Below, piece after piece: positions 54,488 to 58,722 of a stretch of DNA of 64,000 nt. The position numbers and the translations under genes were made by a program. The stretch spans positions 1,598,501 to 1,662,500 of the forward strand of contig NZ_LCTZ01000002.1 in assembly GCF_001413955.1 (NCBI RefSeq), given 5' to 3'. The notes below the pieces were generated by a model. It did no database searches. It was not told the DNA's origin and saw only the letters and a program-made list of their open reading frames with translations. Positions within the stretch are counted from its first letter, which is position 1. Each line of letters starts with the position of its first letter. The DNA is from Flagellimonas eckloniae (lineage in GTDB: Bacteria; Bacteroidota; Bacteroidia; Flavobacteriales; Flavobacteriaceae).

Positions 54488-54880
54488 ATATTAGACAATA
54501 GATTTTAGATAATGAATAATTACAAAGAACTTATTGTGTGGCAAAAATCAATAGCGTTAACAGAATTGGTTTATAAAATGACCTCTTGTTTTCCTGATGA
54601 AGAGAAGTATGGCCTGACGAACCAAATCAGAAGAAGTGCTGTTTCAATCGCTTCAAATATTACAGAAGGAGCGGGAAGAAATTCTAAAAAAGAGTTCAGA
54701 AATTTTCTTGGAATTGCCAATGGTTCTTTGAATGAATTAAATACACAACTAGAAATATCAAAAAGATTAGAGCTTATTCATAAGAATGAACTTGATGAGG
54801 TTTCAATCCTAAGTGATGAAATTCAAAAAATGATTTACACTCTCATCAAAAAATTTGCTCAAATCTAAATACTAATATCT
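54486..54880 (+). mobile_element. Possible 395-bp IR-bounded cassette carrying a four-helix-bundle gene
   Basis: The left end AGATATTAGACAATAGATTT (54486-54505) and the reverse complement of the right end (54861-54880; AGATATTAGTATTTAGATTT) agree at 16 of 20 positions, including both AGATATTAG and AGATTT blocks. They bracket the gene tightly and its last codons lie in the right repeat. No target-site duplication is visible, so mobility is only suggested. Confidence 0.4.
54512..54868 (+). CDS. Four-helix-bundle protein (23S rRNA IVS/Avd-like family) within the trp operon
   Basis: 118 residues. Family signatures: YKELIVWQKSIALTELVYKMTSCFPDEEKYGLTNQIRRSAVSIASNITEGAGRNSKKEFRNFLGIANGSL-type core with WQKS, RRSAVSI and NITEGAGR. 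Homologues occur inside 23S rRNA intervening sequences, next to diversity-generating retroelements, and as single genes scattered through Bacteroidota. It has no known role in Trp synthesis. It lies between trpG and trpD in the same direction and its framing inverted repeats suggest insertion. It is A/T-richer than trpG and trpD. Confidence 0.93.
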   Translation: MNNYKELIVWQKSIALTELVYKMTSCFPDEEKYGLTNQIRRSAVSIASNITEGAGRNSKKEFRNFLGIANGSLNELNTQLEISKRLELIHKNELDEVSILSDEIQKMIYTLIKKFAQI

Positions 54881-54894
54881 CATATCCAATAAAT

Positions 54895-55890
54895 ATGAAA
54901 GAGACTCTCAATAGACTCATCAACCACGAAATCTTGGCAAAAGCAGACGCCAAGCAAATCTTGGTCAACATTGCCAAAGGGGATTACAATACATCTCAGA
55001 TTGCAGCTTTTCTGACAGTTTATATGATGCGTAGCATCACCATTGAAGAACTGGAAGGTTTTAGAGATGCGCTTTTAGAACTTTGTTTGGCCGTAGATTT
55101 ATCTGAATACAACCCAATTGATTTGTGTGGTACCGGAGGTGATGGTAAGGATACCTTCAACATTTCTACATTGGCATCATTTGTAACTGCCGGAGCCGGC
55201 ATAAAAGTGACCAAACATGGCAATTACGGTGTTTCTTCTAAATGCGGCAGCAGCAATGTCATGGAGTTTTTAGGTATTAAGTTCAGTAATGAAGCAGATT
55301 TTCTTAAAAAATCCATTGATGAAGCAGGAATATGTGTCTTGCATGCCCCATTATTCCACCCAGCCATGAAAAATGTGGCTCCAATTCGCAGGGAACTAGC
55401 TGTGAAAACTTTTTTCAATATGTTGGGGCCTATGGTAAATCCAGCCTTTCCAAAGAATCAAATGGTAGGTGTTTTCAATTTGGAGCTCGCTAGAATGTAT
55501 GGATACCTCTATCAAAACACGGATAAAAATTTCACCGTGCTTCATGCTTTGGATGGCTATGACGAAATCTCTTTAACGGGTGCAACAAAAACCATCTCAA
55601 AAGATTCTGAAGGCATGTTGACTCCGGCAGATTTTGGAGTAGAAAGCATTTTGCAAGAAGAGATTGTTGGAGGAGAAGATGTAGCGCAATCCGCCCAAAT
55701 ATTTCTGGATATTTTAAATGGTAAGGGTACAGAAGCACAGAATAATGTGGTTTGTGCCAATGCTGGAATTGCCATTGCAACCGTTCAAGACACAACACCA
55801 AAACAAGGTTTTGAAAAAGCAAAAGAATCGCTCCTAAGCAAAAAAGGATTGGGAGCATTAAAGAAATTACAGGAATTAAGTAAAAACTAA
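54895..55890 (+). CDS. trpD: Anthranilate phosphoribosyltransferase
   Basis: 331 residues. It joins anthranilate to PRPP. The glycosyltransferase-3 N-terminal helices (LNRLINHEILAKADAKQILVNIAKGDYN) are followed by the PRPP-binding loop LCGTGGDGKDTFNISTLASFV and KHGNYGVSSKCGSSNVMEFLG, then HPAMKNVAPIRRELAVKTFFNMLGPMVNP. It is complete despite the cassette inserted just upstream. The gap to trpC (63 bp) holds half of the palindromic repeat seen downstream. Confidence 0.97.
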   Translation: MKETLNRLINHEILAKADAKQILVNIAKGDYNTSQIAAFLTVYMMRSITIEELEGFRDALLELCLAVDLSEYNPIDLCGTGGDGKDTFNISTLASFVTAGAGIKVTKHGNYGVSSKCGSSNVMEFLGIKFSNEADFLKKSIDEAGICVLHAPLFHPAMKNVAPIRRELAVKTFFNMLGPMVNPAFPKNQMVGVFNLELARMYGYLYQNTDKNFTVLHALDGYDEISLTGATKTISKDSEGMLTPADFGVESILQEEIVGGEDVAQSAQIFLDILNGKGTEAQNNVVCANAGIAIATVQDTTPKQGFEKAKESLLSKKGLGALKKLQELSKN

Positions 55891-55945
55891 GACCGTATCG
55901 AGTGTAGCCGAGAAGTTTTAGATTTCTCACTTCATTCGAAATGAC
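55891..55945 (+). repeat. Palindromic repeat, partial copy 1 (trpD-trpC gap)
   Basis: It contains the right end TCGAAATGAC (55936-55945) and the inner GAGAA...TTTCTC stem (55909-55928), but no left GTCATTTCGA end. It is a degraded or half copy of the element at 56741-56818. Confidence 0.65.
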
Positions 55946-55953
55946 ATAATACT

Positions 55954-56739
55954 ATGAATATTTTAGATAAAATAGTAGCCGATAAACGTAAAGAGGTCGA
56001 TTTAAAAAAGGCATTGATTCCAGTTTCGCAGTTGGAGCTGGCTGTTCTTTACAATCGAGATACGGTTTCTTTGGCCACTTCATTAAGAAATAGCAACTCA
56101 GGAATTATAGCAGAACACAAGCGGCGTTCTCCCTCCAAATCAGTCATCAATCAAAGTTTGAATGTTCAAGATGTTGCCAAGGGATATGAAGAAGCGGGAG
56201 TTTGCGGAATGTCCGTTTTAACCGATGGCAAATATTTTGGAGGTTCCTTGGATGATTTGTTGCTGGCTAGAGCATCCGTAAAAATGCCGCTGTTGCGAAA
56301 AGAGTTTATCATTGACGAGTACCAAATTTTGGAAGCTAGGGCTCATGGAGCTGATGTAATTCTTCTGATAGCTGCCATTTTGAACAAGGATGAAATCAAA
56401 AATCTATCAGAAACAGCTAAAAGTTTGGAATTGGATGTGCTTTTGGAAGTACATAATGAAGAGGAACTGCGTAAATCCATCATGCCAAGTTTGGATATGT
56501 TGGGCGTAAACAACAGGAACCTAAAAACTTTTGAGGTGAGTTTGGAAACCAGTAAAAGTCTATCAGAATTGATTCCAGATGAATTTGTAAAAGTCTCGGA
56601 AAGTGGCATAAGTTCTATTGAAGCGATTAAAGATTTAAAGCAATATGGCTACCAAGGTTTTCTTATTGGGGAGAATTTCATGAAAACCGATAATCCCGGA
56701 AAGCATGCAACTGAATTTATAAATGAATTAAAACAATGA
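55954..56739 (+). CDS. trpC: Indole-3-glycerol phosphate synthase
   Basis: 261 residues, a TIM barrel that forms indole-glycerol phosphate. The motifs are in order: IIAEHKRRSPSKSVIN (catalytic Lys), VLTDGKYFGGSLDDL, LLRKEFIIDEYQILEARAHGADVILLIAAIL, LDMLGVNNRNLKTFEV and VSESGISS. TrpC is not fused to TrpF. The 91-bp gap to trpF is unusually long for this operon because it holds the palindromic repeat. Confidence 0.97.
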   Translation: MNILDKIVADKRKEVDLKKALIPVSQLELAVLYNRDTVSLATSLRNSNSGIIAEHKRRSPSKSVINQSLNVQDVAKGYEEAGVCGMSVLTDGKYFGGSLDDLLLARASVKMPLLRKEFIIDEYQILEARAHGADVILLIAAILNKDEIKNLSETAKSLELDVLLEVHNEEELRKSIMPSLDMLGVNNRNLKTFEVSLETSKSLSELIPDEFVKVSESGISSIEAIKDLKQYGYQGFLIGENFMKTDNPGKHATEFINELKQ

Positions 56740-56740
56740 T

Positions 56741-56818
56741 GTCATTTCGAACTGTTAGACTGAGCGCAGTCGAAGTCAAAGTGAGAAATCTAGATTTCTC
56801 CCATTCGGTCGAAATGAC
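56741..56818 (+). repeat. Palindromic repeat, full copy 2 (trpC-trpF gap)
   Basis: The ends GTCATTTCGA (56741-56750) and TCGAAATGAC (56809-56818) are perfect inverted repeats. Inside is an 18-bp perfect palindrome (GAGAAATCT/AGATTTCTC, 56783-56800) and a GACTG/CAGTC hairpin (56757-56770). It begins one base after the trpC stop and could fold into a strong RNA hairpin in the polycistronic message. Confidence 0.85.
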
Positions 56819-56830
56819 AAAACAAGCGAT

Positions 56831-57541
56831 ATGAAACTAAAAGTCTGTGGAATGAACCATAACCCTATTGAGGTTGCTCAATTGCTGCCAGATTACTTGG
56901 GCTTTATTTTTTGGGAACCTTCCACACGCTATTTTGATGGTGCTATGCCGGATTTGCCAAAATCTATAAAAAAAATAGGTGTCTTTGTAGATGCCTCGAT
57001 TGACGATGTCCTTCAAAAAGTTGAAACGTATAATCTAGACGGGGTGCAGTTGCATGGAAAGGAAAGTCCGGAATTTTGCAATGAATTAAAAAATAGATTC
57101 AATGTCATTTCGAACAAAAGTGAGAAATCTCATGAGATTCCTCAATCGCAGGACTCATTTCGGAATGACAAATTGGAAATCATCAAAGTATTTTCCATCA
57201 AGGACAATTTTGACTTTTCGATTTTGAAAGATTATGAGGAGGTATGTGACTTTTATCTGTTTGACACCAAAGGGAAGCTTCCTGGTGGCAATGGATATAC
57301 TTTTGATTGGTCTGTGTTGAATAACTACCCGTCAACAAAACCATTTTTCCTGAGTGGTGGAATCGGATTGGAAACGGCTTCCGAACTTCAAGCATTTTTG
57401 AAAAGTCCAGCATCAAAAAAATGCCATGCCATAGATGTGAATAGTCGATTTGAAATACAACCTGGGTTAAAAAACAGTGAAGAGTTAAAAGAATTTAAGA
57501 GGTTGCTCACCAGCAACTTTGAACCAAATACTGACAACTAA
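56831..57541 (+). CDS. trpF: Phosphoribosylanthranilate isomerase with an in-frame repeat insertion
   Basis: 236 residues. It isomerises PRA to CdRP. The barrel motifs are intact: [33 protein letters not shown] (general-base Cys7), [62 protein letters not shown] and [16 protein letters not shown] (general-acid Asp). Codons 92-113 ([22 protein letters not shown]) are exactly a palindromic repeat element; removing them gives about 214 residues, the usual TrpF length. The insert falls between the VQLHG strand region and the IIKVFSI strand, probably on a surface loop, so activity may survive. The stop overlaps the trpB start as TAATG. Confidence 0.95.
57104..57169 (+). repeat. Palindromic repeat, copy 3 inside the trpF coding frame
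   Basis: 66 bp, 22 codons exactly, beginning GTCATTTCGA (57104-57113) and ending TCGGAATGAC (57160-57169), near-perfect inverted ends. The inner near-palindrome GAGAAATCTCATGAGATT with CCTC (57122-57143) matches the centre of copy 2. It contains no stop codon in the trpF frame. Confidence 0.85.
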
Positions 57542-58722
57542 TGAGTTATCACGTTAATGAAAAAGGATATTACGGAGAATTTGGAGGCGCTTTCATTCCA
57601 GAAATGCTTTATCCAAATACGGAAGAGCTCCGTCAAAATTACATCCGCATAATGGAAGAATCTTCCTTTAAAGAAGAGTTCGATCAATTACTTAAAGACT
57701 ATGTTGGGCGTCCAACCCCACTCTATTTTGCGGAAAGATTATCAGAAAAATATCAAACTAAAATCTATCTAAAACGAGAAGATTTATGCCATACCGGTGC
57801 CCACAAGGTCAATAATACGATTGGGCAAATTCTTATGGCAAAAAAACTGGGCAAAAACAGAATTATTGCGGAGACAGGTGCTGGACAACATGGGGTTGCA
57901 ACGGCAACCGTTTGTGCTTTGGCCGGAATTGAATGTGTGGTCTATATGGGTGAAATCGATATTGCACGTCAAGCCCCAAATGTTGCCCGAATGAAAATGT
58001 TAGGTGCAGAGGTACGCCCGGCATTATCCGGAAGTAGAACCTTAAAGGATGCCACAAATGAGGCCATCCGTGATTGGATCAACAATCCAGTGGATACACA
58101 TTATATCATTGGTTCCGTGGTTGGACCTCATCCATATCCGGATATGGTTGCCAGGTTCCAATCCGTGATTTCGGAAGAAATCAAAACGCAATTGTCGGAA
58201 AAAGAAAATCGTGAAAATCCAGATTACGTAGTTGCATGTGTAGGTGGAGGCAGTAACGCTGCCGGAGCTTTTTATCACTATTTGGATATACCCGACGTTG
58301 GAATAATTGCGGTAGAAGCTGCGGGAAAAGGTATCGATACGGGTGAAAGTGCAGCAACCTCAGCTTTGGGAAAAGTAGGGGTTATTCACGGTAGTAAAAC
58401 GCTGTTAATGCAGACCAATGATGGTCAAATCACAGAACCCTATTCCATCTCGGCAGGACTGGACTACCCGGGTGTTGGACCAATGCATGCCCATTTGTTC
58501 CAATCAGGGAGGGCAGAATTTATCTCGATTACGGATGACGAGGCCATGATGGCAGGATTGGCATTAAGCAAACTGGAAGGTATTATTCCCGCCATAGAAT
58601 CATCACATGCATTTGCCATTTTAGAACATAAAAGATTCAACCCATCAGATATTGTGGTCATTAACCTTTCTGGAAGGGGCGATAAAGATTTACAAAACTA
58701 TATTGACTATTTCAAGCTATGA
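57541..58722 (+). CDS. trpB: Tryptophan synthase beta subunit
   Basis: 393 residues. It condenses indole and serine with PLP. The PLP Lys is in [19 protein letters not shown]. Other motifs: [53 protein letters not shown] (phosphate loop) and [16 protein letters not shown]. It is full length and overlaps trpA by 4 nt (ATGA at 58719-58722), which favours equal expression of both subunits. Confidence 0.98.

Follow-up and report, generated by a model that had tools for sequence, protein, structure and literature searches.

REPIN/RAYT systems are built of non-autonomous hairpin halves that are arranged in inverted pairs. Palindromic repeats within coding sequence have been described in Rickettsia, where the Rickettsia palindromic elements (RPE) lie in frame in conserved protein genes; the product of gmk carrying such an element is reported to be translated and active, with a changed substrate affinity (PMC2229807). 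REPs tagged with GTAG or CGTC, intragenic ones included, were described in several bacteria by Di Nocera et al. 2013. The CGTC type is reported there from Bacteroidetes without a dedicated transposase, and recB of two Xanthomonas species holds different REPs at about the same site (PMC3733652). The words 'isomerase', 'Muricauda', 'Robiginitalea', 'Gramella' and 'Zunongwangia' are all absent from the main text of that paper.

Our analysis concerns trpF in a stretch of 64,000 nucleotides from Flagellimonas eckloniae, referred to as the window (Table 1). With a probability of about 0.8, a segment of this gene is a REP-like mobile palindrome, and the loop in which it lies is a recurrent exchange site for at least four families (A, B, C and E) across Flavobacteriaceae. 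The locus is similar to RPE in that palindromes lie in frame in conserved genes, here trpF (full elements) and metG (half-elements). It differs from RPE in that the host belongs to Bacteroidota, that the copies are mostly intergenic (in peptide searches, among the matches listed), and that several families use one loop and appear to replace one another. With the GTAG/CGTC-tagged REPs it shares tagged hairpin units in inverted dimers, found here in A, B, C and E, but the window element starts with TGTCA and does not carry the CGTC tag. Compared with the recB case of Di Nocera et al., the site shared here spans dozens of species, several genera and at least four families, with hybrids, tandems and decay. 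Hairpin halves in inverted pairs are also the likeness to REPIN/RAYT; however, the window tag is GTCA rather than GTAG, and a search of the window's own genome for the Y1 transposase (PF01797) gave 0 matches at E ≤ 0.001. Coding palindromes (in Rickettsia) and intragenic REPs (in other bacteria) are already known. Among the matches listed in a search of openly accessible main texts, we recognised no report that describes protein-coding palindromes in Bacteroidota or mentions the trpF or metG sites, and an exchange site in core enzymes that several families use recurrently appears to be new.

The element makes up codons 92–113 of trpF. As the original prediction had it, the insert is exactly 66 bp long and in frame, adding 22 residues. 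Its ends, GTCATTTCGA and TCGGAATGAC, had been called near-perfect inverted repeats, and they do pair with only one mismatch. As RNA, the element strand was found to fold at −19.7 kcal/mol (z −2.8), a value equalled by 1 of 200 shuffles. Taken by itself, the 10-mer GTCATTTCGA is not rare in the window (seven matches with up to one mismatch against 4.8 expected, a count reached by 25 of 100 shuffles); it is the complete element, together with its copies, that carries the case. Family A is composed of two inverted halves, each having a GTCA start and a hairpin; in the window element a T precedes the GTCA (AAT followed by GTCA), which gives the TGTCA start. An empty site was identified in L087, which reads LKNRF-PE-LEIIKV where the window protein reads LKNRFN, the 22 codons and then KLEIIKV. 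This indicates that the window element looks like a clean 66-bp gain at a TrpF loop. Since both insert-free relatives and other genomic copies were found, the proposal that a palindromic repeat has become 22 codons of trpF holds.

Alignment to the solved TrpF chains 1lbm and 1nsj, which we take to be Thermotoga TrpF, located the insert after the fourth helix of the barrel and before the fifth strand, strands and helices being numbered as is established for this fold. In (beta/alpha)8 barrels, helix-to-strand loops of this sort lie on the face opposite the active site. Judged from the sequence, the insert is probably translated and tolerated as a surface loop, and it may be tolerated because it lies away from the active site. 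In the window protein, C6 and D145 are presumably the catalytic Cys and Asp of TrpF; in a 70-sequence alignment D145 is invariant and C6 nearly so. The PF00697 match to the protein falls into two stretches, and the listed one begins at residue 104. Without the insert the protein would have 214 aa, and the six insert-free TrpFs of the genus have 207–218 aa, in agreement with the earlier view that the enzyme is otherwise complete and of typical length. A broken or duplicate trpF was ruled out, because there is a single TrpF match in the genome and the conserved residues are intact.

Table 1. Positions of the trp genes and palindromic elements in the window.
Feature	Position	Strand	Evidence
trpD	54895..55890	+	ORF; PF00591, PF02885
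Diverged palindromic element in the trpD–trpC gap, right arm like family A	55891..55945		weak BLAST; fold z −4.3
trpC	55954..56739	+	ORF; PF00218
Family A element, long form, 78 bp, in the trpC–trpF gap	56741..56818		covariance model; 77/78 identical in G020
trpF, phosphoribosylanthranilate isomerase, 236 aa, holds the element	56831..57541	+	ORF; PF00697 E 1.7e-30
Family A palindromic element in trpF	57104..57169	+	in-frame reading, fold, covariance-model match
trpB	57541..58722	+	ORF; PF00291

Related copies had also been predicted in the two gaps just upstream. This is right for the trpC–trpF gap, which holds a full copy, but the trpD–trpC gap holds only a diverged or partial one, whose best shared stretch is 26 nt at 89% (BLAST, E 0.04) and which the family A covariance model (R1) missed at E ≤ 1 in the search of its own genome. 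Plain copying of the trpC–trpF gap element into trpF was rejected, because the right arm of the gap element differs. Between trpG and trpD (54512–54868) we also noticed a gene for a 23S rRNA intervening-sequence / four-helix-bundle protein (PF05635) inside the trp operon. The protein has a bAvd-like match below the cut-off.

To count family A in the genome of the window (4.13 Mb, 99.9% complete), we made a covariance model of ten A-like elements, of which this genome supplied five and three relatives the other five. At least nine distinct places were found at E ≤ 0.01, five of them being model members, and at least 11 at E ≤ 1; both counts are lower bounds, 150 of 3548 candidates having been scored. 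The repeat thus has further genomic copies, as the original prediction supposed. It had also proposed counting the copies inside ORFs: open frames of at least 100 aa span 2 of the 11 copies, namely the one in trpF and one in a 102-aa frame that we judged to be spurious. Three further copies among the 11 read overlap the edge of a long frame. For the nine copies of this genome taken through all orientations and phases of insertion, 7 of the 54 combinations were tolerable, with the gene staying open, and two of these seven belong to the trpF copy. This suggests that surviving insertions are filtered.

TrpF was found in 58 of the 60 genomes of the genus (Flagellimonas/Muricauda/Allomuricauda by homologue names), and all 58 were read. 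Element types, including half- and decayed ones, were judged by eye on the DNA and the peptide. In 50 of the 58, the same TrpF loop holds a palindromic repeat or half of one: C in 20 genomes, B in 17, half-B in 8, A in 2, C/B combinations in 2 and half-C in 1, with none in 6 and another insert in 2. Family B is 72 bp long (GTCATTTCGAGCGCAGTCGAGAAA...TCTCGACTGCGCTCGACCTGAC), and family C about 62 bp (CGTCATGCTGAACT.GTTTCAGCATC...CCCGAAACAAGTTCGGGGTGAC); 20 of the 24 C copies in trpF start with CGTCA. C elements with unlike arms occur, by our own reading, in both orientations, five each. The trpF of L080 contains C and then B, while in L067 the left half of C is fused to the right half of B. Among the best 120 protein homologues, P0003 has C-type and A-type elements stacked, and 15 have a loop of 19–21 residues and no insert. 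Only the left half of B is present in trpF of eight genus genomes that are close on the tree (L030–L033, L078 and L084–L086), so the two-half hairpin is not needed there. A nested GC-rich palindrome (CCTGCCGG-like, with peptides such as ARLPDGQ) was observed inside the elements of L029, L056, L251, L274, L276 and L277; it occurs in trpF (L029 and L056) and also in metG elements, which suggests yet another repeat, one with repeats as its target.

Copies of A and C are also present elsewhere in the genus genomes. Peptide models of C, B and the A/B half were each run over 40 genus genomes. Among the matches listed, counting those that are stop-free in frames of at least 200 aa, the C model matched trpF 15 times and metG twice, the B model matched trpF 13 times, and the A/B-half model matched metG ten times and the window trpF. 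The remaining long-frame matches among those listed were L154 for C, whose frame looks non-coding, and L152 for B, which matched on both strands with the element near the start of two opposite frames. For the A/B half they were one match reading into the G015 trpF frame, upstream of the gene, and 12 weak ones (E 0.01–0.5). G005 had 60 matches to the C model on both strands, and the next highest number among the matches listed for the 40 genomes was 29.

The second site, metG, was first noticed from a C-half among the long-frame matches of the peptide models. Half-elements were found in metG of 41 of the 50 genus genomes read (A-half 12, B-half 12, right+left half pairs 9 and C-half 8), and the inserts in 9 are unassigned or decayed. 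The insert lies between the motif LPFT..KLK.I/ML and the next W, and the elements there occur as lone halves or as a right+left pair instead of the full dimer. In the window's own genome, metG contains a B-type half in frame (NIRSSTVETISW; L359, G000:C2:2554200-2556300).

Outside the genus, the family survey covered 149 genomes, one per genus, with TrpF present in 143. Loci from 60 other genera were fetched, 17 for a split or long match and 43 from the top of the list, and 56 of them were readable (L203, L217, L237 and L245 were excluded as unparsable). Such elements occur in 16 of the 56 readable genera of this sample, which is biased towards inserts. The types were none 36, E 6, C 4, other 4, half-C 3, hybrids 2 and half-B 1. 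E is a further family (CGTCATTACGAGGA...TCTCGCAATGAC), and 4 of its 6 copies have the CGTC tag; two inverted halves are seen in A, B, C and E. Such inserts were also found among named loci, the best 80 of 582 being taken and 76 readable, for example in Winogradskyella wandonensis, Flavivirga amylovorans, Aestuariibaculum marinum, Arcticiflavibacter luteus and Winogradskyella algicola. L208, L218 and L234 seem to have a C half that is decayed or stands alone, and some loops of 24–28 residues that we labelled none may be further decayed inserts. The original prediction expected the segment to be absent from TrpF elsewhere. Insert-free relatives do exist, but many relatives carry an insert at that place, mostly of another palindromic family, which argues for a recurrently used site rather than one insertion. 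Its opposite case, in which most flavobacteria carry the same segment with unrelated DNA, was not encountered in an informative way.

A tree of 114 genomes was built from TrpC, TrpF without the loop and TrpB by a quick maximum-likelihood search with SH-aLRT support. Element type, in 10 labels with halves kept separate, needs at least 45 changes on this tree, and shuffled labels need 56–71; presence and absence need at least 18 changes against 26–40 for shuffled labels, six 'other' rows being left out. Within the genus there are 25 type changes (shuffled mean 32.4, minimum 25), and 13 when halves are merged and only the 48 A, B and C rows are kept (shuffled mean 17.7, range 12–22). Family identity is thus only weakly tied to descent. 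The type is scattered in metG as well, where 25 changes were counted among 49 (shuffled 24–35), and 20 among 41 without the unassigned rows (shuffled 17–27).

Sisters with different elements are found in nine pairs with support of 95–100. The two members carry different families in L014 (A) and L015 (B) (100), L061 (C) and L021 (B) (99), L077 (B) and L062 (C) (100), L072 (B) and L069 (C) (95), and L058 (B) and L017 (C) (99). One member has none in L226 and L198 (E) (98), L231 and L197 (E) (98), L236 and L191 (E) (96), and L247 and L196 (C) (96). The window (A) and its closest relative G020 (B) are sisters with support 100, and the intergenic element that they share, identical at 77 of 78 positions, sits 285 bp upstream of the trpF element.

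These differences between sisters could also have arisen by allele exchange, each family having been inserted once or twice long ago and trpF alleles then swapped between species of the genus by homologous recombination. Junction spacing is uniform per family (B 17/17, C 18/24, E 5/6). Such near-fixed junctions are not predicted by many random insertions unless insertion is site-specific, and they could reflect few old insertions that were later shuffled or lost. The 45 nt just upstream have a small same-type identity excess (30 of 2000 permutations, 45 genus rows), so short allele exchange may contribute. Of the five genus sister pairs tested, three also have unclear flanks: in each, one member has at least one flank that matches a species of the same type as well as, or better than, it matches the sister. 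However, the other three flank stretches had no same-type excess (496 of 2000 further upstream, 695 just downstream and 1537 further downstream). Moreover, L061 and L021 are 98/98% identical over 45 nt on either side, and L077 and L062 98/100%, which exceeds the identity to any same-type species of the genus, and yet their elements differ; allele exchange would require tracts that reach no further than about 45 nt beyond the element on either side. The two orientations of the C elements with unlike arms, and the elements that stand beside insert-free sisters in other genera, also speak against allele exchange, and we consider it possible but rather doubtful.

It is unlikely that selection retains a hairpin in the trp mRNA, for processing or translational control, from whichever family supplies it. 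Such selection would agree with a strand that folds better than 199 of 200 shuffles and with a palindrome supplied at one spot by different families, but the insert is missing from 6 of the 58 genus TrpFs and consists of a half only in 9, 36 of the 56 other genera read have no insert, and metG does not have the full dimer. An ordinary variable loop that resembles a repeat by chance is hardly credible. Loop length does vary in the family, 6 of 114 inserts fit no family, and some of the loops labelled none reach 24–28 residues; the inserts nevertheless match intergenic repeat copies along their length, and do so in several distinct families. Chance resemblance was ruled out by this match to genomic copies at the DNA level.

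Under recurrent exchange of REP-like palindromes at the loop, the reading we prefer, a small mobile palindrome of family A would have landed in the permissive TrpF loop between helix 4 and strand 5, on the barrel face away from the active site, and would survive there with 66 bp that keep the frame and bring no stop. Families A, B, C and E would enter the loop, replace one another and stack, recombine half by half, shrink to single halves, and decay into ordinary-looking loop sequence. The data themselves show the origin from repeats, the shared position, the kept frame, the differences in family between sisters, and the halves, tandems and hybrids. The exchanges probably happened in situ, the hairpin halves are likely to be the mobile units, and the decayed forms would derive from full elements. 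A Y1 (RAYT-type) transposase was rejected as the obvious mover, as none was found in the window's own genome at E ≤ 0.001; PF01797 is present in 10 of the 60 genus genomes. We tentatively propose, at somewhat less than even odds, that the TrpF and MetG loops are landing pads of a RAYT-independent system, in which hairpin-guided, flank-sparing exchange of REP half-units would be fast enough to leave the resident family only weakly tied to species phylogeny within a genus, and would supply the proteins with new loop sequence.

The trpF gene is a natural record of repeats entering a core enzyme, replacing one another and decaying in it. Dozens of species offer one site for comparison in its empty, full, half, tandem and nested forms and in apparently decayed ones. 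This provides a replicated natural experiment on a long-standing question, namely how protein genes are entered by mobile palindromes, come to keep them and are reshaped by them. Turnover can thereby be tested for its rate and direction, and so can the effect on enzyme function and the mobilising mechanism; many named strains of these bacteria are cultured, in contrast to obligate intracellular ones. Our findings also suggest how repeats can give rise to differences in loop length in a core enzyme.
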